A stretch of DNA of 64,000 nt from Desulfosediminicola ganghwensis (GTDB lineage: Bacteria; Desulfobacterota; Desulfobulbia; Desulfobulbales; Desulfocapsaceae), in NCBI RefSeq assembly GCF_005116675.2, contig NZ_CP050699.1, positions 3,930,001 to 3,994,000 on the forward strand. Reading direction: 5' to 3'. The translations under genes were made by a program, and so were the position numbers. The first letter of the stretch is position 1. The number at the start of each line of letters is the position of its first letter. This document shows, piece after piece, positions 26,253-46,099 of this stretch. The notes under the pieces are model-generated. The model worked only from the letters and a program-made list of their open reading frames with translations, had not been told where the DNA came from and made no database searches.

Positions 26253-27086
26253 TTAACCTCTGCAACCGCCGGTGGAACGATGTGCACCCATACAACTGCT
26301 TTCATCAGGTATTGATGAACTCTTTTTTTCACCGCGCTCAATCTGGCGAATGATGGATGATGCCAGATAGCCTGCACCAAAGCCATTGTCGATGTTTACG
26401 ACACCTATACCGCTGGCACAACTGTTCAACATGGCAAGCAACGACGCCAACCCATCAAAATGGGCACCATAGCCGATTGAGGTTGGCACGGCGATAACAG
26501 GACAATCGACAAGACCGCCAACCACACTTGGCAAGGCCCCTTCCATTCCGGCCACCGCAATTATTACACTTGCCTCATCAAGCAAGGTTCGTCTGGCAAG
26601 TAGACGGTGTATACCGGCTACTCCCACGTCATACAGGCGAATTACCTGGCAACCGAGAACTTCCGCTGTGAGCGCAGCCTCTTCGGCAACGGGCACATCA
26701 GAGGTGCCGCCTGTGGCAATCAGCAATTTTGACTTTGACTTTTGATAAGGTTGCTGTCTGTAGATGAGTACTCTGGCTGATTCACTGTAAATTACATCAT
26801 CATGAAGAGAGGCTGTCGCCTCATACATTTCACTGGTTACCCTGGTTGCGAGAACATTTACGCCTTTTGACAAAAGCACTTTTACAATAGCCTCGAACTG
26901 TTCAATCGTTTTCCCCTGGCCATAAATCACCTCAGGATAGCCCGTACGTAAATGCCGATGATGATCTATGTTGGCGAACCCAAGATCTTCGTAAGGAAGA
27001 TGTTTAAGTTCCCCCATAGCGGCATCAATCTCTATAGTGCCGTTCTGAACTTTTTTAAGAATATCCTGAATTGTTTTTTCGTACAT
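26253..27086 (-). CDS. larB: Nickel-pincer nucleotide synthesis protein LarB
   Basis: About 277 residues. LarB carboxylates and hydrolyses nicotinic acid adenine dinucleotide in the first step of the nickel-pincer cofactor made for LarA racemases. The N-terminal helical part (LKKVQNGTIEIDAAM) and the AIR-carboxylase-like core are present: ATGGTSDVPVAEEAALTAE near 140, YDVGVAGIHRLL near 165, VAGMEGALPSVVGGL near 190 and VPTSIGYGAHFDGLASLL near 215. ATG at 27086 is preferred over TTG at 27119. Two LarA homologues and a LarE are in the same region, which fits. Confidence 0.9.
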   Translation of the reverse strand: MYEKTIQDILKKVQNGTIEIDAAMGELKHLPYEDLGFANIDHHRHLRTGYPEVIYGQGKTIEQFEAIVKVLLSKGVNVLATRVTSEMYEATASLHDDVIYSESARVLIYRQQPYQKSKSKLLIATGGTSDVPVAEEAALTAEVLGCQVIRLYDVGVAGIHRLLARRTLLDEASVIIAVAGMEGALPSVVGGLVDCPVIAVPTSIGYGAHFDGLASLLAMLNSCASGIGVVNIDNGFGAGYLASSIIRQIERGEKKSSSIPDESSCMGAHRSTGGCRG

Positions 27087-27316
27087 ATCGTGGGTAATTC
27101 CCCTCTTTTTCACCGACAAACCTTTGCCAGATATATCAAACCTGAGAAGTGTAAGGGTGGCGTAATCATACTCGTCAACCAGGAAGCTCGGAAAAAACTT
27201 TTCTAACCTGGAACGTCCCGTTACCGGAAAACAAAATCTCCCCAGAGTGTAATCATTATCTTAGGGAAATGGGCTGTTTTTTTCATATATTACCCCGATC
27301 CTTGTTGTTGCAAACG

Positions 27317-27360
27317 AAAAAATCCCGACAGAAGCGATATTCTTCTGCCGGGATTAAAAA
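27317..27360 (-). terminator. Terminator after the MoaD-like gene
   Basis: AATCCCGACAGAAG pairs (with one G-T pair) with CTTCTGCCGGGATT, with A/T runs on both sides. It separates the MoaD-like gene from larB. Confidence 0.88.
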
Positions 27361-27380
27361 CTCTAGTGAAATCATTTGAA

Positions 27381-27608
27381 TCAACCGCCGCCAATCGCAG
27401 GCATGAACGTTACCCTGTCACCATCAGCTAACTCCTGCTCAAAGGTGCTACTTCGCCTATTCACATATATACCTTCAACTTCATGATCCTTAATTTCAAT
27501 CAGCGCCAGTAGCGATTGAATATTAGCCGGCTCCTCCAATGAAAGAGTCTTCTCATGAAACCGATTGTTCTGCAGAATGGAAATCAGACAAACGTCAACT
27601 TGTATCAC
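27381..27608 (-). CDS. MoaD/ThiS-family sulfur carrier protein
   Basis: A 75-residue ubiquitin-fold carrier ending in GGG (FMPAIGGG), the tail that is thiocarboxylated to deliver sulfur. The GVYVNRR/DGDRVTFMP pattern is family-typical (here EGIYVNRRSS and DGDRVTFMPA). The start is GTG behind a strong AGGAGGTAGCT ribosome site. Copies of this kind accompany tungsten AOR genes and provide the pterin dithiolene sulfur, so it probably serves the AOR encoded at 37916-39793. A thiazole or LarE-related role is less likely. Confidence 0.8.
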   Translation of the reverse strand: MIQVDVCLISILQNNRFHEKTLSLEEPANIQSLLALIEIKDHEVEGIYVNRRSSTFEQELADGDRVTFMPAIGGG

Positions 27609-28003: not shown

Positions 28004-28028
28004 GGTGTAAGCGTAATACTATCTCTAC

Positions 28029-29189
28029 TTATGCAGACTCGTAGAGCTTGGTCATGATGAACTCACGATGACCCAGAGCCTCGGCAGCGGTCAGACGACC
28101 GTTTGCGGTGCGAACCATCATGTCGAGAAGCTTGTCGCCGGCCTCGTCCATGTTCATCTCGCGGCGAACAATGCCGGATACGTCCACATCAAAGTGCTCT
28201 TCCATGGTTCTGAGGGTACGTGGGTTGGAGCACAGCTTGATTACAGGAATCAGCGGGTTACCAATGATGTTACCCTGACCGGTAGGGAAGAAGTGTACTA
28301 CGAAACCGGAAGCAGCACAGAGGGTTACCATCTCTGCTGCTGCAGAAGAGGAATCCTGGAACCAGAGACCTGGGCCGGTAGGAGCTTCTGCTTTGTCGAG
28401 ACAACCAACTACTGGAGCCTTGGTACCGATCTTCTGGATGTTACCGAGCGCCTTCTCCTCGATGGTGGTGAGACCACCCTCGATGTTACCCTTGGTAGGC
28501 TGAGAGTCGGACAGATCGGAGGTCTTGTTGTCATCGACCACCTTCTGGTACTTGTCGAACATTGCCATGAAGTCTGCACGTACTTCGTCGTTTATACAAC
28601 GTGCAGCTACCAGGTGCTCGCCACCGGTAAGCTCAGTGGTTTCACCGAAGAGAAGAGTGTTGCCCATCTCGTACAGTTTATCGTAAGCGTTACCAACGGT
28701 TGGGTTGGTTGCGATACCGGAGGTGGTATCGGACTCACCACATTTGGTGGATATCCAGAGCTCACTGATGTCACACTCTTCACGCTGAATCTCAGAAGCT
28801 GCCTGGAGGAAGTTCTTCGCTTCACGGGAAGCTGCACAAATGGTATTCAGGTCGCCGTTCTTCTCAATTGCAAAACCTGCAACCGGTTTACCGGTCTTGG
28901 CAATACCATCTACCACCAGATTCGTCCACTCTGGCTCGATACCGATAACGATTACAGCAGCAACGTTCGGGTTGGAACCTGCACCGATCAGGGTACGGAA
29001 ATGAAGCTCGAGATCTTTACCGAACTGAAGACGACCGTATGCATGAGGAATTGCAAGGGTGCCCTTTACATTGTTTTCTACTGCTTTTGATGCTGCGTTG
29101 GAGAGATCATCCAAAGGGAGGATGATTACGTGGTTACGAACACCAACACGACCATTTTCACGACGATATCCTAAAAATTTAGTTTCCAT
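28029..29189 (-). CDS. suyB: (2R)-sulfolactate sulfo-lyase large subunit, copy 1
   Basis: A 386-residue UxaA-family lyase subunit. SuyAB removes sulfite from (R)-3-sulfolactate, leaving pyruvate. Seen: the family opening [34 protein letters not shown] near 145, and [20 protein letters not shown] with [13 protein letters not shown] near 270-305. The enzyme is split from its SAF subunit, as in SuyAB, whereas altronate dehydratase is normally one chain. It starts 3 bases after suyA. Altronate-type sugar-acid activity cannot be excluded from sequence alone. The LarA, AOR and TRAP neighbours favour sulfolactate. Confidence 0.75.
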
Positions 29190-29192
29190 TTT

Positions 29193-29477
29193 CTACCACC
29201 TCTTGGTTTTAACGTTGTGAACGTGTGTGTGCTCGCCTTTCTTGATTGGAGCTACAACCTTGCCGATATCGGTGTTGTACTTGATTACGGTATCGCCTAC
29301 TTCCATATCTTTCATAGCGACTTTGTGTCCGATCGGAATATCGCTCAGAATCTTAATGGTGACGGTCTCATCTTCCTTCATGACCCAACCAGTGATCTCC
29401 TGGCCAGCCTTCAGACCCTCAACAACTACGACACCTACCACGTCAGCGGCTTCGTGTACTAAAAAATCGATAGCCAT
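29193..29477 (-). CDS. suyA: (2R)-sulfolactate sulfo-lyase small subunit, copy 1
   Basis: A 94-residue SAF-domain protein (FLVHEAADVVGVVVVEGLKA, then IPIGHKVAMKDMEVGDTVIK and the GEHTHVHNVKTKRW end). In UxaA-type enzymes this segment completes the active site of the large subunit. ATG at 29477 follows AGGAGACTAAC. It is 3 bases from suyB. The amino-acid sequence is the same as in copy 2. Confidence 0.75.
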   Translation of the reverse strand: MAIDFLVHEAADVVGVVVVEGLKAGQEITGWVMKEDETVTIKILSDIPIGHKVAMKDMEVGDTVIKYNTDIGKVVAPIKKGEHTHVHNVKTKRW

Positions 29478-29712: not shown

Positions 29713-30972
29713 TCACTGATCGTAGAAGTAGAGAGTATTGGCATCCAGTATTACCCCCACTTTCGGAGTACCTGGAAAACCATCCACCCACTCCTGTATT
29801 ACCCCGGTCGGAGCAGCAGCGCGTAAATGACACTTCTGCAATATGGCCGGATCTAACTCACTGGTAATCGCTACATCAAACTGATTCAATGTACGCCCGA
29901 ACACATATGCCGTATGAGCGCCCATGTTTCTTCCCTGCATTTTGAAAGCGGCAAGAATTTCTTCGGGAGTAGTATCCTGGGAGACATAATCAAAAAAGAT
30001 ATCATCTCCAATTCCCTGGGAGGACTTAGCTAACAACAGGATATTACCGCCCTCTTTTACTGCTCTTGACGCCAGGTTTAAGCCTTTCTGGGCCTGGCAG
30101 AGACAAATATCGCGCGGATACCCTCCGCAACTTGCAATAACGATATCGAACTTGTCTTTTATGCCGACCCCATAGACTTCCGCACAAACCTTGGCGCCAG
30201 CCTTAAGTGTCTTATCCGGTTCTCCGGCAAGAACAGTTACCACCTCACGCTCCGGCGAGAGAATAAAGTTGACAGCTAAGTCAATCCCTACCATCTCCCC
30301 TGCTTCTGCGAGATCTTCATGCACCGGGTTTCCATCAAGCACACCTACGTTGACCTGCTCATCAAACATCAGGCTATGATTGTGTGCCCTGGTTGCCTCG
30401 CCTCCACAGCCGATCACAGCGCCTTTTGCAGCTCCGGTAAATCCGACAAACTGGTGGGGATCGATCTGTCCGACCACGATCTTATAATCCGCAGATGCAA
30501 ATAACGCGTTGATATGAACCGGAGTTCCCCGTTTAGTGTAACCGTAGCTCACTATCGGGCTGCTTGTTGCGTCATGGGTAATAACCCTGCAACCACATGC
30601 CATCTCGACCGAGATCAATTGTTCAGGAGTTTCACTTCCCTGAAGCGGTTGAACTCCGCCTATTACTATGATCACCTGTTCTGGGTTAAGATCAGGTGCT
30701 TTTGCAAACAACCATTTCAGCAATTGAGGCAGCACCGTCTTTAAAGGCAACGGTCTCGCCTCGTCAGGTACTGCGATTGCTACGGTTCGACTTTTTTCAA
30801 GGCCACTGAAAAATTCTGCATCACCCTTTTCTGGCTCAAGAAGAGCGTGTTTCAGTGAATCTGTTACAGATTGAACCGGCGCTATTTTTTTTGGCTCTAA
30901 AACGTGTATCTCTGCAGTATCCGGAATCCGTACTTCTACGAACCCCTCACCGTACTTCAATTCAAGCTTCAT
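29713..30972 (-). CDS. LarA-family nickel-pincer protein, copy 1 (active-site His missing)
   Basis: A 419-residue LarA homologue. LarA enzymes interconvert alpha-hydroxy acid enantiomers using a nickel-pincer nucleotide bound to lysine. Retained: DEARP near 70, H173 (DPHQF), K183 (GAAK) and H199 (HNH), matching the L. plantarum H174, K184 and H200. The first catalytic histidine (H108; GFHRP in the reference, GLHPP in copy 2) is GVQPL here, so Gln replaces His and one residue is lost. It starts after GAGGTGATCG, behind a sigma-54 promoter, upstream of suyA. Its activity may be altered or lost. Confidence 0.85.
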   Translation of the reverse strand: MKLELKYGEGFVEVRIPDTAEIHVLEPKKIAPVQSVTDSLKHALLEPEKGDAEFFSGLEKSRTVAIAVPDEARPLPLKTVLPQLLKWLFAKAPDLNPEQVIIVIGGVQPLQGSETPEQLISVEMACGCRVITHDATSSPIVSYGYTKRGTPVHINALFASADYKIVVGQIDPHQFVGFTGAAKGAVIGCGGEATRAHNHSLMFDEQVNVGVLDGNPVHEDLAEAGEMVGIDLAVNFILSPEREVVTVLAGEPDKTLKAGAKVCAEVYGVGIKDKFDIVIASCGGYPRDICLCQAQKGLNLASRAVKEGGNILLLAKSSQGIGDDIFFDYVSQDTTPEEILAAFKMQGRNMGAHTAYVFGRTLNQFDVAITSELDPAILQKCHLRAAAPTGVIQEWVDGFPGTPKVGVILDANTLYFYDQ

Positions 30973-31004: not shown

Positions 31005-31020
31005 AGCAAACAGCGGGCCA
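31005..31020 (-). promoter_or_regulatory. Sigma-54 promoter of larA copy 1
   Basis: On the minus strand the sequence is TGGCCCGCTGTTTGCT, with GG and GC elements at the correct 10-base spacing of -24/-12 promoters. It lies about 33 bases before the larA-1 start. Confidence 0.85.
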
Positions 31021-31413: not shown

Positions 31414-33123
31414 CTAAATGAAATTTGGATCATTTATCTTAACCAGAGACAAGCCACCCTGTACGTTAAAGGTATTCTCTATGCCTTTAGACCTCAGGAC
31501 TATCTGCCCTTCGTATGAACGGGTACCGGTATCACAAACAATGAATACTTTCTTGTCCTGCGGAACTTCACCAAAGCGCATGCCCAATTCGGACTGTGGA
31601 ATGTGCAGCCAACGCTCACCATATTTTTCAAGGTATGGTTCAGCCTGAACAGCATCACGTACATCAAGGATCATTGAATCCGGGTTACCGTTCCATTCTT
31701 CAAGGAACTGAACAGGTTCGGTTACAATGTTACGACCATCGAGAATATTGTCGAGAACGTTACCAACATTATTCACAACATCCATAGCAGATGCGTACGG
31801 AGGCGCGTAACCACCCTCGATCTTAGAAATATCATCGACATCTACACCAAAGCGAAGAACTGAAGCAACAGCATCAACGCGGGCCTTCACAGCGTCACCC
31901 ATGGCACCAACACACTCGATACCGAGTACCTGGCGGGAGTTACGATCTGCGATCAATGCTGCGTACATCGCCTTGGATGTCGGGTAGAAGTGAGCTCTGT
32001 CAGCCTGAGTAATTAAAGACATGGCAGGATTGAAACCAGCAGCCTTTGCCTGGTTGAAGGTGAGGCCTGATGTGGCAACACCCATATCGAATACTTTGAT
32101 GCAGAACGTTCCTACAGTACCTCTGAACAAGGCATGACCGCCGTTAATGTTATCGGCGATAACCCGGCCTTGACGATTCGCAAGAGACCCGAGGGGCATC
32201 ATCTGGTTATTACCGCTCAACAGGTTACGTACCTCGACGCAGTCGCCGCCTGCATAGATGTTTGGATCGTTGGTTCTGAGGCGCCTGTCGACAATCAGGC
32301 CGCCAAACTGGCCAATAGCCAGACCAGCTTCAGAAGCAAACTGGGTATTGGGCCGAATGCCGGTTGAGAGAACGACCATGTCGCATTCAATCTCTTCGTT
32401 GCCAAGCACAACAACTGTGGTACCGTTTTCCTTGTTCTCCTTGATCTCTGTAACCCGCTCGGAAACTAATACACGTACGCCGTGCTCCTCCATCTGTTTC
32501 TGGACAACCGCAGCCATATTCCTGCCAAGAGCAGCAGGCAGAACCTGATCAGCCATCTCCACCAGGGTAGTCTCAATTCCCCAAAGGTCGGTCATGGCCT
32601 CAGCCATTTCGATACCAATTGCACCAGCACCGATAACTACAGCTTTACCGACCTGGCCTTTGGTCATACGACCCTTGATCTCTTCAGCGTGGTGCAGGTT
32701 TGAAACGATGTTTACGGTTGGCAGATCGATACCGGGGATTGGCGGCTTGATTGGTGTTGCACCGGTCGCAATTACCAGTTTGTCGTAATCCAGTACCTTT
32801 TCTACACCAGTGTCAAGATTCTTCACTGTGAGTTTCTTGCCGCGACGGTCAATCTCAGTTGCCTCTACACGGGTTAGGACATCAACACCCTTAACTGCTT
32901 TGAAAAAATGAGCGTCACGAATTGTGTGTGACTGAGTAGACTGTAGCCCCTCGATATCGTTTACGTCACCACCAATATAATAAGGGATACCACAACCACC
33001 ATACGAAATATGGCTGTCCCTGTCGATTACGGTAATTTTCACATCCGGATTAATACGTCTGAGACGGCATGCGACTTTAGGACCAAGAGCTACGGCTCCA
33101 ATAATAATTACATGTTTATCCAC
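31414..33123 (-). CDS. FAD/NAD(P) disulfide oxidoreductase with C-terminal rhodanese domain
   Basis: A 569-residue CoA-disulfide-reductase-type enzyme. It has an N-terminal dinucleotide fold, the single redox cysteine in SYGGCGIPYYIGG (C44), the NAD fold VIGAGAIGIEMAEAM near 160, FAD-binding NIYAGGDCVE near 295, and a C-terminal rhodanese domain with the loop VCDTGTRSYEG near 535. Start is GTG at 33123 after a GAGG site. Such proteins reduce CoA disulfides, polysulfide or persulfides. In this sulfonate region it may handle sulfur thiols or transfer electrons with the AOR; this is inference. Confidence 0.85.
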   Translation of the reverse strand: MDKHVIIIGAVALGPKVACRLRRINPDVKITVIDRDSHISYGGCGIPYYIGGDVNDIEGLQSTQSHTIRDAHFFKAVKGVDVLTRVEATEIDRRGKKLTVKNLDTGVEKVLDYDKLVIATGATPIKPPIPGIDLPTVNIVSNLHHAEEIKGRMTKGQVGKAVVIGAGAIGIEMAEAMTDLWGIETTLVEMADQVLPAALGRNMAAVVQKQMEEHGVRVLVSERVTEIKENKENGTTVVVLGNEEIECDMVVLSTGIRPNTQFASEAGLAIGQFGGLIVDRRLRTNDPNIYAGGDCVEVRNLLSGNNQMMPLGSLANRQGRVIADNINGGHALFRGTVGTFCIKVFDMGVATSGLTFNQAKAAGFNPAMSLITQADRAHFYPTSKAMYAALIADRNSRQVLGIECVGAMGDAVKARVDAVASVLRFGVDVDDISKIEGGYAPPYASAMDVVNNVGNVLDNILDGRNIVTEPVQFLEEWNGNPDSMILDVRDAVQAEPYLEKYGERWLHIPQSELGMRFGEVPQDKKVFIVCDTGTRSYEGQIVLRSKGIENTFNVQGGLSLVKINDPNFI

Positions 33124-33931: not shown

Positions 33932-35224
33932 TTAAATCAGACCATAGCCGAGGAATCTAGGCAGCCAGGTACTGAGTGCCGGCACGAAGAGCAGCAGCAG
34001 TACGCAAAGAGTAATCGCGATAATATATGGAAATACATTGATCGAAAGTCTTTCCAAAGAAACGCCGGATAGTTTCGATGCCACGAATAGATTTACACCG
34101 AGCGGCGGCGTCAGGAAGGCAATTTCGTTGGTTACAACAAAGATTACACCGAAGTGGATCGGATCGATTCCCAGTGAGACAACCACCGGAAGCAGAATCG
34201 GTGTAAGGATAATGATAGTTGAAAGTGTCTCCATGAACATTCCCAGAACATAGAAAACGCCGACCAGGAGCAGCATGACCACGAATTTATTTTCTGAAAT
34301 GGAAGTGATGAGACTTGCCAACTTGACCGGAACCTGCTCGAGAGTCAATAACTGACCGAACATGGTGGAGGTACCTACGATTACAAGCACAGTACCACCG
34401 ATCATTACACCATCAACGAGTGCGGTCATAATTTTCGGACCACTCAGTTCACGGTAAATGAGGCCGCCAACCAAAAGACCCCAGAAAACTGCCACTACGG
34501 AAGCCTCTACCGGGGTAAAGATGCCGGAATAGATACCACCAAGAATAACCAGGGGTGTTGCCAGAGACCATTTTGCATCCCAGCACTCTTTTCCAAACAC
34601 TTTCCACTCGAAGGTACCAGCTTCACCTTTGAAACCCTTTTTACGGGCGATATACCAGGCGACGAGACACTGGGAGACGCCGATGATCAAACCAGGGATC
34701 ATACCGGCCATAAACATGCCGGTTACAGAAACGTTGGCGATAACCGCGTAAATGATCATCGGGTTACTGGGTGGAATGAGAATTCCCAGCGAACCGCCTG
34801 AAGATGATACAGCGCCAGCGTATTCTTTACTATAACCCTGCTTGATCATAGCAGGAATCAACAGTGAGCCAACCGCGGCAACAGTACCGGGCCCGGAACC
34901 GGAAATAGCGGAAAAGAACATGCAGGCGAGAATAGTCGCGATACCAAGTCCGCCATACAAATTCGCAGCAGGACGCTTCACCACATTAATAATGTGACGG
35001 GTGATACCACCATGCTCCATCAGTGAGCCAGCCACGATAAAACATGGAATCGCCAATAGCGGGAAATTATCGACACCACTGTACAGAGTCTGTGGAATCA
35101 TTGATAATGGAAAACCGGAAACCATCAGCGAGCCAAAAGTGGCAATTGCCAATGACATGAAAATCGGCATTCCCAAAACAAGGCTGGCAATAAGAGTCAC
35201 CAGCAAAAGCGTAAGTGTATTCAT
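33932..35224 (-). CDS. dctM: TRAP transporter large permease (DctM)
   Basis: A 430-residue membrane protein with many helices and the family segments LLAIPCFIVAGSLMEHGG near 55, SGSGPGTVAAVGSLLIPAMI near 110 and GGSLGILIPPSNPMIIYAV near 147. It works with the small DctQ subunit and the DctP receptor to import an organic acid with sodium. It starts 2 bases after dctQ. The neighbouring enzymes suggest a C3 sulfonate as cargo. Confidence 0.92.
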   Translation of the reverse strand: MNTLTLLLVTLIASLVLGMPIFMSLAIATFGSLMVSGFPLSMIPQTLYSGVDNFPLLAIPCFIVAGSLMEHGGITRHIINVVKRPAANLYGGLGIATILACMFFSAISGSGPGTVAAVGSLLIPAMIKQGYSKEYAGAVSSSGGSLGILIPPSNPMIIYAVIANVSVTGMFMAGMIPGLIIGVSQCLVAWYIARKKGFKGEAGTFEWKVFGKECWDAKWSLATPLVILGGIYSGIFTPVEASVVAVFWGLLVGGLIYRELSGPKIMTALVDGVMIGGTVLVIVGTSTMFGQLLTLEQVPVKLASLITSISENKFVVMLLLVGVFYVLGMFMETLSTIIILTPILLPVVVSLGIDPIHFGVIFVVTNEIAFLTPPLGVNLFVASKLSGVSLERLSINVFPYIIAITLCVLLLLFVPALSTWLPRFLGYGLI

Positions 35225-36929: not shown

Positions 36930-37787
36930 TTAGATTGCCTTGTACACTGCGTTACAGTCTTCCTTACCATGACCTTCGGCAGAAGCCTTCTTAAGCATCT
37001 CAAGAGAAGCTTCCATTGCTTTCAGATTGAGATCCCAGGCACGTGCCATCTCGCAACCGAGACGAACATCTTTGAGGGCCAGATCAAGACCAAAACGGTT
37101 TTCGAAGTCCCCTTCAGCAATCCATGGACCACGAACATCCATCTGGAAGCTTCTTGCACCGGTATCCTGCAACAGCTCGATAAGCAATTTTTTATCGATG
37201 CCGGCTTTCTCTCCAGCGCGAACACCTTCTGCTAAGACAACGAGGTTGGACATACCGACCATGTTGCTGATCAATTTGATCGCACAGCTCGCTTCCACAC
37301 CACCCATGTAGTATGCAGGAGCACCGATGATCGGCCACAGATCCTCAAGCTTTTCGAATAACTCCTTATCACCTCCAATGAACATTGGTTCTTCAGCTTT
37401 TTCAGTGTGGGCAGGGGTTTTGCCAAGAGTACACTGCAAGAAGCCGATGTTTTTCTCTTTCGCAGCATCTCTCAATTGAACAGAGGACTGCGGATCGATG
37501 GTGCTGAGTTCGATGTGAATAGCGCCTTCTTTCATCTTGGCGAGGAGACCGTCCTCACCAAGCATTACGCCTTGAACATGCTGAGGCAGCGGCAAACTGG
37601 TAAATACGATGTCACAATCTGCGAGATCCTCAACGGACTTGGCAGCTTTTCCGGTAGTTCCTGCTGCAATAGTTCTGTTGATAGCTTCTTCACTCAGGTC
37701 AAAAACCAGAACTTCCTTTCCTGCGCGGATAAGGTTACGGCAAAGTGGTCCACCCATGAGGCCTGCGCCAATGAATCCGATAGACAT
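36930..37787 (-). CDS. 3-hydroxyisobutyrate dehydrogenase-family oxidoreductase (possible DHPS/sulfolactaldehyde enzyme)
   Basis: A 285-residue beta-hydroxyacid dehydrogenase. The Rossmann motif GFIGAGLMGGPL opens the chain and the catalytic lysine is K171 (CAIKLISNM). The substrate-loop usually reading SGG is LGKTPAH (122-127), close to the GRTSAN of E. coli sulfolactaldehyde reductase YihU, with a basic residue at the sulfonate-binding position. ATG at 37787 has TAGGAGAATACCT before it; an upstream ORF start at 37841 is rejected. Between AOR and TRAP genes it probably interconverts dihydroxypropanesulfonate and sulfolactaldehyde (inference). Confidence 0.78.
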   Translation of the reverse strand: MSIGFIGAGLMGGPLCRNLIRAGKEVLVFDLSEEAINRTIAAGTTGKAAKSVEDLADCDIVFTSLPLPQHVQGVMLGEDGLLAKMKEGAIHIELSTIDPQSSVQLRDAAKEKNIGFLQCTLGKTPAHTEKAEEPMFIGGDKELFEKLEDLWPIIGAPAYYMGGVEASCAIKLISNMVGMSNLVVLAEGVRAGEKAGIDKKLLIELLQDTGARSFQMDVRGPWIAEGDFENRFGLDLALKDVRLGCEMARAWDLNLKAMEASLEMLKKASAEGHGKEDCNAVYKAI

Positions 37788-37870
37788 AGGTATTCTCCTA
37801 TTTATGCTTTGGTATTGATTGGCGGCACACAGATTCAGCATACCGCCGTGTGATATACATACTCAATGAT

Positions 37871-37915: not shown

Positions 37916-39793
37916 TTATTCAGCTTCCGGCAACCAGAAGAGACCAAGCTCTGCAAGCTTACCTCTGGTCGGACGACCTTCTTTGTCCCAACCGGACATC
38001 TCGTAGTAGAGCTGAATGCACTCAGCAAACGAGTCTCTATCGAAGGCAACATCCTTGAGCGGACCAGCAGGCATCTTCTCATACCATCTTTCGATGAGCT
38101 TGTCGTCTGCGGGGGTGAATCCGCATCTGTTGTTGAAAATACGGGCCATAACGTTACCACGCTCAACAGCAGTGACAATCTCGAAAAGACTGCTCTCCCA
38201 GCCGGTGATTGCCTCAACCGCTTCAACAAGACGCGGAAAAGTCATTGCATGGATCGGCACAGAACAGAAGTTGCAAAGACCAAGGAGGTTATTGATACCC
38301 CATGCTTTCTGACCGATATAAAAGAAACGCACCTTAGCAGCATCAGTCTTCAGCGGCTCAACCGGATCGAGTAAACCGAGCGGGAAGAGCTTTGCCACAC
38401 CGTCGCCCATAAATGCGTGATCATGCGGAGTCTCGATATGATCTGCACCGGTAGGAGAAAGTGCGAAGCCCATAGCCATACCGGACTTACCACGACCATC
38501 GTGGAAGGCAGGCTCCTGACCCTTGACATGCATTGCATACTTCTCCGCACCATTACCAATCTTCTCGGCAGCACGCTTAACACCAAGGCTCAAGGTCTCA
38601 CCGATCCCCTCACGGGCAGCGATTTTTTCGATCAGCCAGAGCATACCGTCTGCATCACCAAAACCGATTGAGCGTCCCTCGAAATCCTCAGCGGTGAGGA
38701 TGCCGTTTTCAAAACACTCCATGGCGAAGGCAACAACAGCACCGGTGGAAACAACGTCGAGACCGAGAAGGTTACAGAGCTGGTGACCACGTGCAACCGC
38801 AGCGATGTCGGCAATAGCGCACATGGAACCGAGGGCTCCGATCGACTCAAACTCAGGACCACCGAATTTTTTATTCAGCGGGTAAGGACTATCGGCCTCT
38901 ACGCGACGCTTACAGGCAACTGAACACATCCAGCAGGTACCGCGACCGGCAAAGATGGTCTCGTGGTAGTGCTCTGCTGCAAGGGTCTTCCAACCCTCGA
39001 ACTGACCTTCTTTCCAGTTACGGGTCGGCAGGAAACCTCCGGCGTTAACGCCCTCAGTCAATCCTGGAGTGCCGTACTTGGTAAGGCCGACGTTGGGCGG
39101 ATGTACCTTAACCTTCTCGCGGTGCCACTGGGCGATCTCTTTTACTTTGTCCGGATTTGCGAATTCGAGTTTTCCGGTACCACGTACGGCGATGGCTTTG
39201 AGCTTCTTGGAGCCCATAACCGCACCCATACCGGTACGTCCATTGAAGTGCTCGATATCATTCTGCAGAGCTGCATAGGATACAAGATTCTCACCGGCTG
39301 GACCGATACCGCATACACGTACCTTCTTGTCGGTCGCTTCCTCGAGAGCAGTCAGAGTCTCTGCGTTATCCATGCCCCAGAGATCTGCAGCATCACGGAT
39401 CTCCACCTCACCATCGTTAATCCAGAGGTAAACGGGTGCATCTGCAGCACCTTTAATGATTACTGCGTCAAAACCTGCAAACTTCAGTTCAGGTCCGAAG
39501 TAACCGGCCGCCTCAGATTCGGCAAAACCACCGGTAAGGGGCGACTTCGCACCTACAGAAAAACGGTTGAACCCGGAAATCGGTGCACCGGTTACAACGC
39601 TGGTAGTGAATACCATTACGTTTTCAGGCCCGAGAGGATCAATATCCGGTTTAATTTCTTTTAATAAAGTCTCACCGATGATTCCGGTACCACCCATATA
39701 GGTTCTGTACCACTTCTCACCAGGCTCTTTAATTTCAATTTTTTTATGGGTCAAATCCACATAAAGGATCTTTCCGTTATAACCAAATGGCAT
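37916..39793 (-). CDS. Tungsten aldehyde:ferredoxin oxidoreductase (AOR family)
   Basis: A 625-residue cytoplasmic enzyme that oxidises an aldehyde to an acid and reduces ferredoxin. Family features: the N-terminal GYNGKILYVDLT, the pterin segments SVGAKSPLTGGFAESEAAG near 80 and NGRTGMGAVMGSKKLKAIAV near 185, and the Fe-S cysteines CWMCSVAC near 290 with a later CNFCSVP near 490. ATG at 39793 has GGAGG before it; the upstream TTG includes that site and is rejected. Next to the dehydrogenase and sulfo-lyase genes, sulfolactaldehyde is the likely substrate. Confidence 0.9.
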   Translation of the reverse strand: MPFGYNGKILYVDLTHKKIEIKEPGEKWYRTYMGGTGIIGETLLKEIKPDIDPLGPENVMVFTTSVVTGAPISGFNRFSVGAKSPLTGGFAESEAAGYFGPELKFAGFDAVIIKGAADAPVYLWINDGEVEIRDAADLWGMDNAETLTALEEATDKKVRVCGIGPAGENLVSYAALQNDIEHFNGRTGMGAVMGSKKLKAIAVRGTGKLEFANPDKVKEIAQWHREKVKVHPPNVGLTKYGTPGLTEGVNAGGFLPTRNWKEGQFEGWKTLAAEHYHETIFAGRGTCWMCSVACKRRVEADSPYPLNKKFGGPEFESIGALGSMCAIADIAAVARGHQLCNLLGLDVVSTGAVVAFAMECFENGILTAEDFEGRSIGFGDADGMLWLIEKIAAREGIGETLSLGVKRAAEKIGNGAEKYAMHVKGQEPAFHDGRGKSGMAMGFALSPTGADHIETPHDHAFMGDGVAKLFPLGLLDPVEPLKTDAAKVRFFYIGQKAWGINNLLGLCNFCSVPIHAMTFPRLVEAVEAITGWESSLFEIVTAVERGNVMARIFNNRCGFTPADDKLIERWYEKMPAGPLKDVAFDRDSFAECIQLYYEMSGWDKEGRPTRGKLAELGLFWLPEAE

Positions 39794-40175
39794 TTTTATC
39801 CTCCACAAACATGCAAAAGCTTGTGCATTTACAGTCGTCCAAATTTTCTTACGAAAAATTGGCCATACATCTCATCTGCACTGGTATTAAATTCCGTTGC
39901 TTTCCAAACTAAAATTCAACAGAAAATCACTATGCATCCTTCCCTTCCAACCGCTTTTCGCCAGACATCCAGACCGTTCCCTCAGGGAAACCCGGTTTTT
40001 TGTCTTGCCGGCAACTTTTCCTGCATTTTCAGTTTATTATGAAAATCTCATGGTCAAATAGAAGATTCAGCAATAGATATCTGTTTGAAATTACCTTTCG
40101 AATCTTTTTTACCAAAATACGTACTATACCTACCGCCCAACCCCACCTGCTGACTGGGTGCCTGCAGGCGGGTGC
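39794..40175. other. Intergenic region, no gene
   Basis: No credible ORF. It must hold the AOR promoter, but I found no consensus -24/-12 element on the minus strand. A single GCCCAA occurs at 40135-40140. A stem involving CACCTGC and GCAGG near 40144-40172 may end the suyB copy 2 transcript. Confidence 0.45.
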
Positions 40176-40200
40176 GGTGTAAGCGTAATACTACTTATGC

Positions 40201-41361
40201 TTATGCAGATTCGTAGAGCTTGGTCATGATGAACTCACGATGACCCAGAGCCTCGGCAGCGGTCAGACGACCGTTTGCGGTGCGAACCATCATGTCGAGA
40301 AGCTTGTCGCCGGCCTCGTCCATGTTCATCTCGCGGCGAACAATGCCGGATACGTCCACATCAAAGTGCTCTTCCATGGTTCTGAGGGTACGTGGGTTGG
40401 AGCACAGCTTGATTACAGGAATCAGCGGGTTACCAATGATGTTACCCTGACCGGTAGGGAAGAAGTGTACTACGAAACCGGAAGCAGCACAGAGGGTTAC
40501 CATCTCTGCTGCTGCAGAAGAGGAATCCTGGAACCAGAGACCTGGGCCGGTAGGAGCTTCTGCTTTGTCGAGACAACCAACTACTGGAGCCTTGGTACCG
40601 ATCTTCTGGATGTTACCGAGCGCCTTCTCCTCGATGGTGGTGAGACCACCCTCGATGTTACCCTTGGTAGGCTGAGAGTCGGACAGATCGGAGGTCTTGT
40701 TGTCATCGACCACCTTCTGGTACTTGTCGAACATTGCCATGAAGTCTGCACGTACTTCGTCGTTTATACAACGTGCAGCTACCAGGTGCTCGCCACCGGT
40801 AAGCTCAGTGGTTTCACCGAAGAGAAGAGTATTGCCCATCTCGTACAGTTTATCGTAAGCGTTACCAACGGTTGGGTTGGTTGCGATACCGGAGGTGGTA
40901 TCGGACTCACCACACTTGGTGGATATCCAGAGCTCGCTGATGTCACACTCTTCACGCTGAATCTCAGAAGCTGCCTGGAGGAAGTTCTTCGCTTCACGGG
41001 AAGCTGCACAAATGGTATTCAGGTCGCCGTTCTTTTCAATTGCAAAACCTGCAACCGGTTTACCGGTCTTGGCAATACCATCTACCACCAGGTTCGTCCA
41101 CTCTGGCTCGATACCGATAACGATTACAGCAGCAACGTTCGGGTTGGAACCTGCACCGATCAGGGTGCGGAAATGAAGCTCGAGATCTTTACCGAACTGA
41201 AGACGACCGTATGCATGAGGAATTGCAAGGGTGCCCTTTACATTGTTTTCTACTGCTTTTGATGCTGCGTTGGAAAGATCATCCAAAGGGAGGATGATTA
41301 CGTGGTTACGAACACCAACACGACCATTTTCACGACGATATCCTAAAAATTTAGTTTCCAT
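40201..41361 (-). CDS. suyB: (2R)-sulfolactate sulfo-lyase large subunit, copy 2
   Basis: A 386-residue UxaA-family subunit with the same amino-acid sequence as copy 1, so the same motifs and likely role: sulfite elimination from (R)-sulfolactate to pyruvate. It lies in module 2, behind larA-2 and the sigma-54 promoter next to the activator gene. The two copies probably add dosage or allow separate control rather than new chemistry. Confidence 0.75.
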
Positions 41362-41364
41362 TTT

Positions 41365-41649
41365 CTACCACCTCTTGGTTTTAACGTTGTGAACGTGTGT
41401 GTGCTCGCCTTTCTTGATTGGAGCTACAACCTTGCCGATATCGGTGTTGTACTTGATTACGGTATCGCCTACTTCCATATCTTTCATAGCGACTTTGTGT
41501 CCGATCGGAATATCGCTCAGAATCTTAATGGTGACGGTCTCATCTTCCTTCATGACCCAACCAGTGATCTCCTGGCCAGCCTTCAGACCCTCAACAACTA
41601 CGACACCTACCACGTCAGCGGCTTCGTGTACTAAAAAATCGATTGCCAT
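41365..41649 (-). CDS. suyA: (2R)-sulfolactate sulfo-lyase small subunit, copy 2
   Basis: A 94-residue SAF-domain subunit. ATG at 41649 with AGGAGACTAAC before it gives the same length and sequence as copy 1; an ORF start at 41664 would overlap the ribosome site. It precedes suyB copy 2 by 3 bases. The 207-base gap to larA-2 holds GTGAATCGA and TCGATTCAC as an inverted pair. Confidence 0.75.
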   Translation of the reverse strand: MAIDFLVHEAADVVGVVVVEGLKAGQEITGWVMKEDETVTIKILSDIPIGHKVAMKDMEVGDTVIKYNTDIGKVVAPIKKGEHTHVHNVKTKRW

Positions 41650-41856: not shown

Positions 41857-43125
41857 CTACTTCTCTTTCTCGTAGTAGTACATGGTATTTGCATTCATGA
41901 TTATGCCAATACGGGGAGTTCCCTCGAATCCGTCCAGCCACTCGCTTAGAGCCTCTTCCGGACGTGCTGCACGCAGCTGGCACTGCTTCAGAATGGCCGG
42001 ATCGAGTTCGGATGTAACCGCTACATCAAACTGATCGAGAGTACGGCCAAAAAGAAATGCTTTGTGGGCGCCCATCTTGAAACCTTTCGCCCTAAAATCG
42101 CTTACAACTTGCTGTGGGGTTTCAAACTTGGAAACGTAATTGAGGTATACATCGTCGCCTACTCCCTGGGGAGAAGCTGCAAGCAGCAGGATCTTACCGC
42201 CTGGCTTAACCGCCTGTGATGCGAGGTTCAAACCCTTTTGTGCCTGATAAAGACAGATGTCTTTCGGGTAACCACCACAACTGGCGATGACAATGTCAAA
42301 CTTTTCATCAATACCTACGCCGTAGAGAGCGGCACAGCTTTTGGTACCCTCAGACAAGGTATCGAGGGGCTTACCGACCATAATCTTGATAACGTCTTTG
42401 TTCGGTGCCATTACCATATTCACGGCGAGGTTAACGCCGACCAGCTCACCAGCCTCATTGAGATCCTGACGAACCGGGTTCTCTTCGAGCACACCCACAC
42501 GTGCCTGCTCATTGAACATGAGGCCGTGGTTATGCTCGATGGTTTTTTCGCTGCCGCAACCGATAATCACACCTTTCGCACCACCGGTAAATCCTACGAA
42601 CTGGTGGGGATCGATCTGACCGATCACTATTTTATAATCAGCCTCACCATAGACCGCGTTCACCTGTACAGGGGAACCACTGCTGGTGGTACCGAAATCT
42701 TTTATTGGGCTATTGACCGCATCATGGGAAATTCGTGCACAGCCTGGCGCCACCTCGGCTGGAACCAACCTGTCGAGATCATCCTGCTCCAGCGGCGGAT
42801 GAAGCCCACCCCCGACAATGACGGTCACATTCTCCGGCTTCAGTGCAGGCGCATGTTCATACAGCCATTTCAAAACGATTGGCAGCACCTTCTTGACAGG
42901 CAAAGGTCTGGTTTCATCAGGCACTGCGATGGCAACCTTCTGCCCTTCTTTCAAATCAGGCAGCAGACTCGCATCTTTTTCTCCGGCATTTACCAGAGCC
43001 TCGATTAGCGCCTGCTCAACTGATGGCACCGCTGCAATCTTGTTTGGCTCCAACACTGTTACATCGGCTGAATCCGGAACTTCAACTTCAATAGTTCCTT
43101 CACCATATTTTAATTCAAACTTCAT
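41857..43125 (-). CDS. LarA-family nickel-pincer racemase, copy 2 (full active site)
   Basis: A 422-residue LarA homologue with every known key residue: R73 in DETRP, H109 in GLHPP, H174 in DPHQF, K184 in GGAK (cofactor attachment) and H200 in HNH (nickel ligand). The last three numbers coincide with the L. plantarum enzyme. It should invert an alpha-hydroxy acid. As the first gene before suyAB, it is proposed to turn (S)-sulfolactate into the (R) form that SuyAB cleaves. ATG follows AAAGAGGTGAAAT. Lactate or malate are alternative substrates. Confidence 0.87.
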   Translation of the reverse strand: MKFELKYGEGTIEVEVPDSADVTVLEPNKIAAVPSVEQALIEALVNAGEKDASLLPDLKEGQKVAIAVPDETRPLPVKKVLPIVLKWLYEHAPALKPENVTVIVGGGLHPPLEQDDLDRLVPAEVAPGCARISHDAVNSPIKDFGTTSSGSPVQVNAVYGEADYKIVIGQIDPHQFVGFTGGAKGVIIGCGSEKTIEHNHGLMFNEQARVGVLEENPVRQDLNEAGELVGVNLAVNMVMAPNKDVIKIMVGKPLDTLSEGTKSCAALYGVGIDEKFDIVIASCGGYPKDICLYQAQKGLNLASQAVKPGGKILLLAASPQGVGDDVYLNYVSKFETPQQVVSDFRAKGFKMGAHKAFLFGRTLDQFDVAVTSELDPAILKQCQLRAARPEEALSEWLDGFEGTPRIGIIMNANTMYYYEKEK

Positions 43126-43158
43126 ATTTCACCTCTTTAAATAACATACTGAGTGTTA

Positions 43159-43174
43159 TGCAAAAGACGGGCCA
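43159..43174 (-). promoter_or_regulatory. Sigma-54 promoter of larA copy 2
   Basis: On the minus strand TGGCCCGTCTTTTGCA gives the -24 TGGC and -12 TTGCA elements at correct spacing, 34 bases before larA-2. The -24 element TGGCCCG is the same as in the larA-1 promoter. Confidence 0.88.
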
Positions 43175-43285
43175 CAGCCTTTTTTTAAATACATTTTTGT
43201 CGATATTCAGCAGGAACTAGCTACATACCGATCGAAACGCTACTCCAGCCCATTGAAAAGTAGCAGTGATTGCTTACGAAATCAT

Positions 43286-43389
43286 GCCCAATATCCGGCA
43301 TCGCGACGAATATTGGGCTTGTTTTTTCGGCACTCTTTAGTATTATTGGGCACTCAACACATAATCGTTATCCTCTATTGGTGCCCAAT
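43286..43389. promoter_or_regulatory. Predicted enhancer cluster between activator and larA copy 2
   Basis: Four copies of the element GCCCAAT form two inverted pairs: GCCCAATAT (43286-43294) with ATATTGGGC (43310-43318), and ATTGGGCAC (43345-43353) with GTGCCCAAT (43381-43389). They lie 112-215 bases upstream of the sigma-54 promoter, the usual activator distance. The last copy overlaps the activator start codon, suggesting autoregulation. Confidence 0.65.
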
Positions 43390-44920
43390 GAAGTGGAATA
43401 CAGATACCCGATATAAACTGTTGCTCGACATTAACAACGCCATTGCTACAGAGAAAAACAGTGAGAGTTTGTTCCAGGCCCTATCCAAGGAACTTCATAA
43501 ACATTTTGAACATGACCGGCTGGCAATCATTCTCTATGATCAGGAGAATGGGTCGATCAACTACTTCGCCGCCGCAGACGGTGTACAACCCGGTGGAGTT
43601 GTTGCCAATAATTCCCGGCCACTGGCCAATGGCGCAATTGCTAAAATCGCCATCCGCTCAGGCCAGCCCGCAGTTTTCGACGATCTCAGTCAATACAAGG
43701 ATCTTAGTTCGGTAGGTGACCTGATCAAGGCAGGCCTTACCTCAACCATGGTTTTCCCGATGATCGTCCGGGACAAAACCATCGGAACAATCAACTTCAG
43801 CTACCGACAAAAGCCAAATTATATCAGTGAGCTTACAGAACTCCTGAAATCGGTAACCCAACAGATAGCTATCGCCGTCGACAACATGCTGGCCTACAGT
43901 TCGCTTGAGCATAAAAATAAACACCTCAAAGAGAAAAACAAATACCTGCTCTCAAACACCCAGGATTATAAAGCTGACGGCTTTTTCTATGCATCCGATT
44001 GCATGAGAGAGGTAATAGAGCTCCTCGACAAAGTCGCCAGAACTGATGAAACAATCCTGCTCACCGGCGAGACCGGAACAGGAAAAGATTTTCTGGCCCG
44101 GCTCATTCACGAGCGCAGCCATCGCAGCAATCATCTTTTTGTAAAGACGAATTGCCCCGGTCTTACCTCATCGCTCTTTGAGAGTGAACTTTTCGGCCAC
44201 TCCAAAGGTGCTTTTACAGGTGCTGACAATAACCGACTGGGCCGATTTGAACTGGCGAACAAGGGCACCATCTTCCTCGACGAGATTGGTGAATTGCCTA
44301 TTGCCATGCAATCCAAACTGCTCCAGGTCCTGCAGGAAAAACAGTTCGAACGCGTGGGTGAAAGTTCTTCCACTCCGGTTGATGTTCGTATTATTGCAGC
44401 CACCAATGTCGATCTGCTCGAGAATGTGCAAAACGGTGAATTCCGGCAGGATCTCTACTATCGCCTGGAAACTGTCACCATCGAAGTACCTCCTCTCAGG
44501 AAACGGCCCGAGGATATTCCTCTCCTTATCACCAACATCAACGCCAGCGAATCTGAGCGTATGAACCGGCCGGCGCCGATATACACCGAACAGGTACTGG
44601 ACACACTCTCCGGGTATACCTGGCCCGGTAATATCCGTGAACTCCGCAATCTGGTCCGGCGCCTGATCATTCTTCACCCTGGTGAGAGAATCGGCTCTGA
44701 CGAAATTGAAAAAACCTTTTCACTGAAAGCTACAACCCAGGAAAAACCTGATAATTTCCAGACTCTTCAGCAGGCGGAACGTGATCACATCATCGATGCG
44801 CTCAGCTCCTGCAAAGGAATTATCGGTGGTAAAAAAGGCGCCGCCCATCTGCTCGGTATTCCCCGTTCTACCTTGCAGTATCGCATTAAAAAGCTTGGCA
44901 TTAACCCTGCCGAAATCTAG
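43388..44920 (+). CDS. Sigma-54-dependent activator with GAF sensor domain
   Basis: A 510-residue enhancer-binding protein: an N-terminal GAF domain (about 20-160) as ligand sensor, a AAA+ core with GETGTGKD (Walker A), GAFTGA (sigma-54 contact) and GTIFLDEIGELP (Walker B), and a Fis-type helix-turn-helix at the end (GGKKGAAHLLGIPRSTLQYRI). ATG at 43388 (MKWNTD) fits the domain start; codons back to 43253 run through inverted repeats. It is divergent from larA-2 and should activate both -24/-12 promoters. Its ligand is probably a C3 sulfonate. Confidence 0.9.
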   Translation: MKWNTDTRYKLLLDINNAIATEKNSESLFQALSKELHKHFEHDRLAIILYDQENGSINYFAAADGVQPGGVVANNSRPLANGAIAKIAIRSGQPAVFDDLSQYKDLSSVGDLIKAGLTSTMVFPMIVRDKTIGTINFSYRQKPNYISELTELLKSVTQQIAIAVDNMLAYSSLEHKNKHLKEKNKYLLSNTQDYKADGFFYASDCMREVIELLDKVARTDETILLTGETGTGKDFLARLIHERSHRSNHLFVKTNCPGLTSSLFESELFGHSKGAFTGADNNRLGRFELANKGTIFLDEIGELPIAMQSKLLQVLQEKQFERVGESSSTPVDVRIIAATNVDLLENVQNGEFRQDLYYRLETVTIEVPPLRKRPEDIPLLITNINASESERMNRPAPIYTEQVLDTLSGYTWPGNIRELRNLVRRLIILHPGERIGSDEIEKTFSLKATTQEKPDNFQTLQQAERDHIIDALSSCKGIIGGKKGAAHLLGIPRSTLQYRIKKLGINPAEI

Positions 44921-45292
44921 CCATCATCGAGGTCTGGTCAATTGGCCCTGCCCAGGCCTCATCAACTTAATGTATCGGCAAACTACACCTGGGGTTTTCC
45001 GCCAGGGATATTTGCTGAAGTCGATAAAGCTTAACAGTTCAACTCACGGCTAACCGTTAAAGATCCAATCAATTTACCCTATACTTCAGCTGTCGATTCC
45101 ATCATGGATATTGATGCCACGCACATCCTGCTTGAAAGTTTTGAAGTAAAAAAGGCTATGGCTTCAGAGTATCCAGTCATCCGAAATAGCTGTCAATTAT
45201 GACTAATATGCTTAAAGTCTATTGCTGAGAAAATCGCCTACACCATTAACAACAGTATTTCGACACCCCACAGTAAGGATGGTACCATTCCG
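44921..45292. other. Intergenic region, no gene
   Basis: No ORF with a ribosome site, RNA gene or clear promoter seen. It lies between the activator and larE, which may or may not be co-transcribed. Confidence 0.45.
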
Positions 45293-46099
45293 ATGACAGA
45301 CCACGATAAACTCACCGACCTGAAAGCATATTTTGAAAAGCTCGGCACCATAGCCGTGGCATTCTCCGGTGGTGTGGACAGCACCTTTGTAGCCTGCCTT
45401 GCCGAACGTGTACTTGGTGACAAGGCAATCGCAATTACAGTCGATTCCCCCTATATACCCCGCTGGGAGATTGACGAGGCCAAAGAACTTGCCGCTTCTA
45501 TAGGTATTCGTCACGAACTGGTCACAGTAGAAATCCCCGAAGAAATAGCCAGCAATCCCTTCAACCGCTGTTACCTATGCAAAACAGCCCTGTTTACACT
45601 TATTCAGGAGAAAGCCAGAGATTTGGGGTTTACCAACGTGGCAGATGGCTCCAACTTCGATGACACCAAAGATTATCGGCCCGGCCTGAAAGCACTGTCT
45701 GAACTCCGGGTGAAAAGTCCGCTGATGGAAAACCAGTGGACCAAAGACGAGATACGCGCTGCCTCAAAAGAGCTGGGCCTCGCAACCCATGACAAACCTG
45801 CCTACGCCTGTCTGCTGACCAGAATTCCCTATGACACCCGGATCAGTCTCTCTGATCTGGTGAAAATTGAAAGGTCCGAAACCTACTTGATGTCACTTGG
45901 CTTCCGTGCAGTACGGGTTCGCTGCCATGGCGATCTGGCACGTATCGAAGTTAACCGCAACGACCGAAGCAAACTCTTTAACGAAGAGCTGCTTGATTCG
46001 ATATCCGAACGACTCAAAAGTTATGGATTCAAATATGTCGCCATAGAAGCTGCCGGTTATTCAATGGGCAGTCTCAACAAGGCGATTCCCGCCCCATAA
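45293..46099 (+). CDS. larE: Sulfur transferase LarE for nickel-pincer cofactor
   Basis: A 268-residue PP-loop ATPase that installs sulfur on the LarB product. SGGVDS at 25-30 binds ATP, and the family pattern YIPRWEIDEAKELA near 54 is present. Three cysteines stand at the sulfur site: C93 and C96 (NRCYLCK) and C173 (YACLLTRIP). A single Cys marks sacrificial LarE, whereas a three-Cys set marks the [4Fe-4S], catalytic type, so this is predicted to be the latter. No LarC is in the window. Confidence 0.87.
   Translation: MTDHDKLTDLKAYFEKLGTIAVAFSGGVDSTFVACLAERVLGDKAIAITVDSPYIPRWEIDEAKELAASIGIRHELVTVEIPEEIASNPFNRCYLCKTALFTLIQEKARDLGFTNVADGSNFDDTKDYRPGLKALSELRVKSPLMENQWTKDEIRAASKELGLATHDKPAYACLLTRIPYDTRISLSDLVKIERSETYLMSLGFRAVRVRCHGDLARIEVNRNDRSKLFNEELLDSISERLKSYGFKYVAIEAAGYSMGSLNKAIPAP

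Follow-up and report, generated by a model that had tools for sequence, protein, structure and literature searches.

A LarA-family nickel-pincer protein beside sulfolactate sulfolyase genes in Desulfosediminicola ganghwensis: a candidate sulfolactate racemase

SuyAB, the sulfolactate sulfolyase, acts on (R)-sulfolactate (PMC10507020, PMC11131964) and the sulfolactaldehyde (SLA) dehydrogenase of sulfoglycolysis yields (S)-sulfolactate (PMC11382572), so that an inversion is needed between the two; in known bacteria the enantiomers are reported to be bridged by SlcC and ComC. How the inversion is achieved is the question raised by a 64,000-nt stretch of the one-contig, 5.65 Mb genome of Desulfosediminicola ganghwensis (NZ_CP050699.1, positions 3,930,001 to 3,994,000; G000:C1:3930001-3994000), hereafter the window. 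A homologue of the nickel-pincer racemase LarA lies there directly upstream of suyA-suyB twice, with larB and larE within the same 20 kb, as a preliminary description had claimed and as coordinates and family models confirm. The same description proposed that LarA is a one-step sulfolactate racemase replacing the dehydrogenase pair. We consider it probable that the cluster is an inducible C3-sulfonate pathway in which one homologue, LarA-2, would convert (S)- to (R)-sulfolactate for SuyAB, whereas for the other, LarA-1, the proposal is doubtful.

The larA-suyAB association

LarA-2 (41857..43125) and LarA-1 (29713..30972), both on the minus strand, exceed the cut-off of 462 bits of the LarAH5 model NF052595 with 572.6 and 531.7 bits respectively. 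Each precedes, on the same strand, a small and a large sulfolyase subunit: SuyA-2 (41365..41649; an open reading frame listed from a TTG at 41664, which counted from its ATG gives the same 94 amino acids as SuyA-1) and SuyB-2 (40201..41361; PF20629/PF04295) in one module, the open reading frame of SuyA-1 (29193..29477) and SuyB-1 (28029..29189; Pfam domains) in the other. The suyA genes are identical at 284 of 285 nucleotides and the suyB genes at 1153 of 1161, with identical SuyB proteins, and the similarity ends near the suyAB ends, the flanks being unrelated. The near-identical stretches (28004-29477 and 40176-41649) thus lie within otherwise diverged modules. Set against the 58% identity of the LarA pair, this points to suyAB alone having been recently copied or gene-converted. 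LarB (26253..27119, minus strand; NF033503, 293.6 bits, cut-off 175) and LarE, the sacrificial sulfur transferase (45293..46099, plus strand; TIGR00268, 308.9 bits, cut-off 150), are proteins of nickel-pincer cofactor synthesis; a LarC family protein is encoded outside the window (G000:C1:4962400-4963575), so that larB, larC and larE are all present in the genome.

Judged by its sequence relatives, SuyB seems to be a genuine sulfolactate sulfolyase. Among plasmid records it has 316 matches, 13 of them at 60-80% identity (64-74% as listed) and 303 below 60%, the best of the latter being at 41.3% among the best 40 of the 316. The SuyBs of nine genomes of a family (f43) which we take to be Desulfovibrio-like are 77-81% identical to the window SuyB. 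Desulfovibrio sp. DF1 SuyAB has been shown to split sulfolactate (PMC6278857). The 64-74% plasmid group includes Cupriavidus pinatubonensis, which has hpsN and hpsO near suyAB and whose cluster is described as hpsRNOUPsuyAB (PMC11382572); SuyB and SuyA are 74% and 58% identical to the counterparts in this species. In another phylum some SuyBs are 57-60% identical, one of them beside slcC-comC, so the plasmid set understates the breadth of the SuyB group.

In a sample of 395 genomes of the phylum, SuyB (called at 1e-100) is present in 18 and LarAH5 in 9. SuyB occurs in six of the nine LarAH5 genomes against 12 of the 386 others (Fisher p=3e-7; 4e-6 without the window genome), and with a looser LarAH5 set of 22 genomes, admitted by a model match at 1e-100, the counts are 6/22 against 12/373 (p=2e-4). 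LarAH5 and SuyB are less than 12 kb apart in all six genomes that have both (G000, G014, G076, G165, G372 and G386). The G386 LarA, a contig-end fragment of 457 bits, was counted as LarAH5, while 13 further genomes at 338-409 bits, none of them with SuyB, were not.

Scanning genomes with LarA-2 alone returned no relative and an alignment-based scan did; the scan of named genomes comprised 59 loci, 47 of them of the type with at least 44% identity (L056-L100, L102 and L111). SuyB is found in 37 of these 47, in both gene orders, a proportion that is biased because the query alignment consisted mostly of linked LarAs (six of eight rows). Among the ten loci without SuyB, L075 has suyA at a contig end, and the contigs of L066, L078, L092 and L100 are short. 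Three loci (L086, L094 and L070) appear to be contigs of G386, G372 and G167, and the two samples overlap. Moreover, larA comes first in Desulfobulbaceae- and Desulfobacterales-type loci and suyAB first in many Desulfovibrio loci, so the link has been kept through rearrangement. The association, for which the preliminary description had suggested such a genome search, is not chance and recurs in many genomes. In a midpoint-rooted tree that omitted 8 short or distant rows, a branch of full support (100/100) separates a group of 52 rows, and 40 of these carry the label suyAB-linked; L075 has this label by suyA alone, and G014 (L034) counts as unlinked despite suyAB ~ 11 kb away.

LarA proteins outside this group were also observed near lyase or dehydrogenase genes. 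In G013 the gene immediately preceding suyA encodes a different LarA (L135:7862-9139; LarAH6-like at 199 bits, below the cut-off), a hint that a LarA of another group has taken on this role there. In three SuyB-bearing genomes without LarAH5, a non-LarAH5 LarA and a ComC-like Ldh_2 gene lie at most ~ 3 kb apart (G109:C18:166848-170695, G190:C5:273680-277563 and G335:C1:274673-278528). Finally, in metagenome-assembled genomes (MAGs) of Halanaerobiaceae and Pseudothermotoga, LarA is beside SuyAB-like proteins of 35-45% identity (L107:2495-5492 and L108:3638-6221), perhaps another pairing of a LarA with a UxaA-family lyase that has a different substrate.

Active-site residues of the LarA paralogues

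The catalytic and cofactor set given for LarA is Asp72, Arg75, His108, His174, Lys184, His200 and Lys298 (PMC7583248). By alignment LarA-2 matches it, keeping D70, R73, H109, H174, K184, H200 and K297, plus K355. LarA-1 does not: it has Gln in place of His109 and a GGGLH stretch shortened by one residue, the six other residues being retained, and on the substrate side Lys355 is replaced by Thr. Over 98 conserved columns, defined from 34 linked LarA rows (L071, L042, L037 and truncated rows excluded), LarA-2 deviates at 2 and LarA-1 at 15, both replacements included, while each of the 34 rows left out in turn shows 0-7 changes. A third LarAH5 of the window genome (G000:C1:45455-46702; L041:9255-10706) is changed at 22 of the 98, including H109, the cofactor lysine K184 and H354, and is adjoined by TRAP genes and a related sigma-54 regulator. 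Judging from these three counts, LarA-2 is likely the working enzyme.

Hence LarA-2 is probably the sole working racemase of the window, with LarA-1 degenerate or re-purposed. Two equal working racemases were rejected as unlikely in view of the residue losses of LarA-1, so both modules of the preliminary description are present but probably do not form two working racemase-lyase systems. That LarA-1 has not decayed but acquired another hydride-transfer activity relying on a single catalytic histidine is a possibility we regard as rather unlikely, though it has points in its favour: its frame of 419 amino acids is intact, it has its own sigma-54-like site, it retains H174, K184 and H200, and single-histidine LarA homologues with a His-to-Asn change exist (PMC12611868). 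On the other side stand the 15 changed sites, a branch longer than that of LarA-2 (0.62 against 0.42, the two being sisters with support 96/87) and the fact that in 37 other relatives no match exceeds 62% identity.

Sulfolactate differs from malate in bearing a sulfonate where malate has its second carboxylate. K355 of LarA-2, in the motif GAHK, aligns with K351 of the malate racemase Mar2, which is proposed to hold the second carboxylate of malate (PMC7583248). The sulfonate could thus be placed at the Lys355 position of LarA-2. The six key sites (H109, H174, K184, H200, K297 and K355) are fully covered in 34 of the 37 linked loci, and 33 of these keep all six, the exception being L071.

The inversion step and competing explanations

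Companion genes were counted in 35 linked SuyB loci (at least 40% coverage demanded, against 37 loci in the residue count) with flanks of at most 10 kb. SlcC at 41% identity or more is near none of the 35, and no adjacent slcC-comC pair is found in any of the six genomes with SuyB and LarAH5. Conversely, such pairs occur in five of the 12 other SuyB genomes, all without LarAH5, with SlcC identities of 100% (G138, the query source), 62% (G235), 59% (G282), 42% (G315) and 59% (G321). In the six LarAH5 genomes the best SlcC-like match is at 40% (G000), 40% (G076), 42% (G165), 38% (G372) and 42% (G386), with none in G014; a level of ~ 40%, which corresponds to generic 2-hydroxyacid dehydrogenases, is reached by nearly all 21 genomes searched. 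In another phylum (299 genomes, centred on G395), SuyB at 1e-100 and 57-68% identity was called in 12 genomes at 15 places (14 regions); LarA is near one place only (L176, 35% identity, with a ComC-like gene beside it), so LarA is not a general solution there, and adjacent slcC-comC pairs are near SuyB in L172, L173, L174 and L178.

The sequence data thus suggest that LarA stands in for the inversion that depends on SlcC, without implying the loss of every dehydrogenase. For LarA-2, the conserved context, the identity of SuyB, the dianion-type active site and the absence of a recognisable slcC-comC pair in the six genomes give good support to a one-step sulfolactate racemase. The stronger claim that LarA replaces the whole dehydrogenase pair goes too far: no SlcC is recognised, but the ComC-like genes described below are kept, and generic dehydrogenases match SlcC about as well as the pair-forming SlcC of G315.

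Several observations weigh against this assignment. Within the 18 SuyB genomes the mutual exclusion of LarAH5 and slcC-comC is weak (p=0.09), and since the pair-forming SlcC of G315 is itself only 42% identical, a diverged SlcC is possible in the LarAH5 genomes. LarA groups other than LarAH5 are common, some Lar_N protein occurring in 10 of the 12 SuyB genomes that lack LarAH5. The linked label requires 9 gains or losses on the tree (18.4 when shuffled). A five-row Syntrophaceae-type LarAH5 subclade (L036, L070, L079, L081 and L083) and the Bacillota LarAH5 loci L101, L105, L106 and L110 are without suyAB nearby, and the unlinked Bacillota loci L101 and L104-L106 mostly carry the same key residues, so that these residues mark the LarAH5 group and not the substrate. 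No match to LarA-1 at 1e-60 is found in three genomes of the window's genus. Furthermore, G014 has hpsN-, hpsO- and hpsP-like genes beside suyAB, its LarA being ~ 11 kb off, and with these genes (R)-sulfolactate would arise directly. As a separate observation, some members of the Syntrophaceae-type subclade have Tct transporter genes, and the substrate of the subclade may differ.

Two explanations that deny LarA-2 this substrate deserve attention. In the first, ComC together with an unrecognised (S)-sulfolactate dehydrogenase would invert sulfolactate, and LarA would handle another dianionic hydroxy acid from the same sulfonate source. Indeed, the window genome has a ComC-like gene (G000:C1:438717-439685) 54% identical to an slcC-adjacent ComC, ComC-like genes occur in 6 of the 35 linked loci, and 2-hydroxyacid dehydrogenases of the genome are up to 40% identical to SlcC, not far from the G315 value. 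However, the ComC-like gene stands alone among unrelated neighbours such as a polyphosphate kinase and a peptidase, none of the three SlcC-like matches of the genome (40, 34 and 32%) is adjacent to it, and two of the three lie in frames of 483 and 547 amino acids, longer than the 313 of SlcC. Together with the absence of SlcC at 41% or more from the 35 linked loci, this makes the dehydrogenase explanation improbable in our judgement.

In the second, LarA-2 would be a genuine malate racemase simply co-regulated with SuyAB, for example with a TRAP transporter importing dicarboxylates as well as sulfonates. The NCBIfam family is indeed named malate racemase, the tested LarAH5, Mar1 of Desulfitobacterium hafniense, acts on malate (PMC7583248), which also speaks against the sulfolactate assignment, and the anion-binding lysine is common to LarA-2 and Mar2. 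However, the KM for malate is 55 mM for Mar1 against 0.38 mM for Mar2, and the authors questioned malate as the native substrate of Mar1 (PMC7583248). Moreover, the scan of the cluster genes recognised no malate enzyme, the suyAB link is conserved despite the changing gene order, and the two residues after His174 are Gln-Phe in LarA-2 against Tyr-Lys in Mar2. We give the malate explanation little credence. D. hafniense DCB-2, of the species from which mar1 comes, respires sulfolactate according to a review (PMC12890257).

A last alternative, in which the SuyAB homologues act on an altronate- or galactarate-type sugar acid and LarA is a sugar-acid epimerase, is scarcely credible and was rejected, since the Pfam domains that SuyB has in common with altronate and galactarate dehydratases are outweighed by its 64-74% identity to 13 plasmid SuyBs (the next at 41.3% among the best 40), its 148 bits on the galactarate dehydratase model TIGR03248 against a cut-off of 730.85 (152 bits for C. 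pinatubonensis SuyB), the 38 bits of LarA-2 on the hexonate epimerase model against a cut-off of 500, and neighbours that are DHPS-type genes (DHPS, 2,3-dihydroxypropanesulfonate).

Companion genes, proposed pathway and known systems

Downwards from 43125 on the minus strand the genes run LarA-2, SuyA-2, SuyB-2, an aldehyde:ferredoxin oxidoreductase (AOR), a DhpA-like dehydrogenase, DctP, DctQ and DctM, followed by a flavoprotein, LarA-1, SuyA-1, SuyB-1, a MoaD/ThiS-like protein, LarB and a LacI-type regulator; the AOR, DhpA-like and TRAP genes therefore sit between the two modules. The AOR (37916..39808; PF01314/PF02730) is a candidate for the conversion of sulfolactaldehyde to sulfolactate, and the DhpA-like protein of the 3-hydroxyisobutyrate dehydrogenase family (36930..37841; PF03446/PF14833) for that of DHPS to sulfolactaldehyde, although it reaches 139.4 bits on the sulfolactaldehyde 3-reductase model against a cut-off of 348. 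The TRAP genes encode the substrate-binding protein DctP (35814..36794; PF03480), the small permease DctQ (35227..35733; PF04290) and the large permease DctM (33932..35224; PF06808). The flavoprotein (31414..33123) is CoA-disulfide-reductase-like (TIGR03385, 374 bits, below the cut-off of 578.8) with a C-terminal rhodanese domain (PF00581), which raises sulfite or persulfide handling as a question. The MoaD/ThiS-like small protein (27381..27608; PF02597, 37.5 bits) possibly serves the tungsten/molybdenum cofactor of the AOR. All of these are on the minus strand. Elsewhere in the window (19830-24634, plus strand), a dihydroxy-acid/6-phosphogluconate dehydratase with a Tct-type tricarboxylate transporter is probably a separate sugar-acid operon.

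Among the 35 linked loci a DhpA-like gene is present in 16, an AOR in 13 and both in 12, with sigma-54 activators in 27, TctA in 24 and DctM in 12. Desulfovibrio cuneatus DSM 11391 (L095) has larA, suyAB, a dhpA-like gene and an AOR at a single locus. HpsN is in none of the 35; LarB and LarE are near the module in none either, which says little given the short flanks and the many contigs that are shorter still. DhpA, an AOR (protein 130621), SlaB and SuyAB are reported to be DHPS-induced in Desulfovibrio sp. DF1 (PMC6278857), and candidates for three members of that pathway, matched by protein kind, are found here as DhpA-like protein, AOR and SuyAB. The DhpA-like, AOR and TRAP genes would complete a DHPS-type pathway.

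A sigma-54-dependent activator is encoded on the plus strand; its longest frame (43253..44920; NifA/NorR-type matches, start uncertain) begins 127 bases from larA-2, with LarE next. Consensus scans place a -24/-12-like site, TGGC-N7-TTGC, 33 bases before larA-2 (43159..43174, minus strand) and 32 bases before larA-1 (31005..31020, minus strand). The full sigma-54 consensus at one mismatch occurs 5 times in the window against 2.7 expected, and 12 of 100 shuffles reach 5, so that the position and not the number of the matches is the evidence. TGGC-N7-TTGC is found within 250 bases before larA in 20 of 40 loci, at about 25-55 bases in 18 of the 20. Among the loci checked, the unlinked L070, L079, L081 and L083 lack it before larA, as do the linked Desulfovibrio-type loci, where larA is often not first. 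Relatives of the activator are upstream of larA in many loci. A plain sigma-70 scan stays at shuffle level (23 against 24.9) and a terminator scan is modestly above it (26 against 17.4).

DsrA scores 577.9 bits in the window genome (cut-off 392.85) and LarA-2 has its closest named loci in Desulfobulbaceae, Desulfofustis and Desulfobacterales MAGs; the host is therefore a sulfate or sulfite reducer of this type. For such a bacterium we infer the respiration or fermentation of C3 sulfonates, as follows. The TRAP transporter would import DHPS and/or sulfolactate, the DhpA-like dehydrogenase would oxidise DHPS to sulfolactaldehyde, and the AOR would form from it sulfolactate, assumed to be the (S)-enantiomer. 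LarB, LarC and LarE would make the nickel-pincer cofactor for loading into LarA-2, which would invert C2 by transient hydride transfer, without NAD, to give (R)-sulfolactate. From this isomer SuyAB would eliminate sulfite, leaving pyruvate, and DsrAB would reduce the released sulfite. The sigma-54 activator would turn on both larA-suyAB modules; LarA-1 would be degenerate or re-purposed, with its suyAB adding sulfolyase dose.

If this is correct, nickel has a part in the organosulfonate branch of the sulfur cycle, and sulfite-reducing bacteria could use both sulfolactate enantiomers by one redox-neutral enzyme and not two dehydrogenases. The enzyme would supply the missing stereo-inversion that connects the oxidation of DHPS or sulfolactate with SuyAB in these bacteria, filling a stereochemical gap in the anaerobic breakdown of DHPS and sulfoquinovose, an H2S source, and it would provide a native substrate for a group of LarA proteins labelled malate racemases, a name in which the discoverers themselves had little trust. 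Literature searches, run outside supplements and subscription journals and limited to the best matches for longer result lists, found no published proposal of a LarA sulfolactate racemase, a nickel-dependent one is not known to have been described, and two surveys of LarA substrates contain no word with 'sulfo' in their main text. The new part is probably the substrate and the pathway role, the enzyme superfamily itself being known.

Four known systems invite comparison. With Mar1 of D. hafniense (PMC7583248), LarA-2 has in common the LarAH5 group, the superfamily catalytic residues and a GHK-type motif; compared by family model and description, the window protein differs in its link to suyAB in Desulfobacterota and in its proposed native substrate, sulfolactate and not malate. 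We give about even weight to the wider view that the suyAB-linked LarAH5 proteins of Desulfobacterota are a family of nickel-pincer sulfolactate racemases, of which Mar1 would be one or would act on a close analogue. Mar2 (PDB 6d6z) is the closest solved structure by sequence (E 3e-66) and differs in the loop after the catalytic histidine mentioned above. The SlcC/ComC system, which accompanies SuyAB in Chromohalobacter, Paracoccus and Taurinivorans, likewise supplies (R)-sulfolactate to the lyase; in its place we propose one nickel enzyme with bound cofactor and no net NAD turnover, no pair having been recognised in the linked genomes and a ComC-like gene being sometimes present. Finally, the DHPS pathway of Desulfovibrio sp. 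DF1 (DhpA, SlaB/AOR and SuyAB; PMC6278857) resembles the window in its DhpA-like, AOR and SuyAB genes and its sulfite-reducing host. DF1 has an ABC transporter where a TRAP transporter is found here, no SlaB-type aldehyde dehydrogenase is among the cluster genes scanned, and the inversion, which the available part of the DF1 account does not discuss (PMC6278857), is assigned here to LarA.

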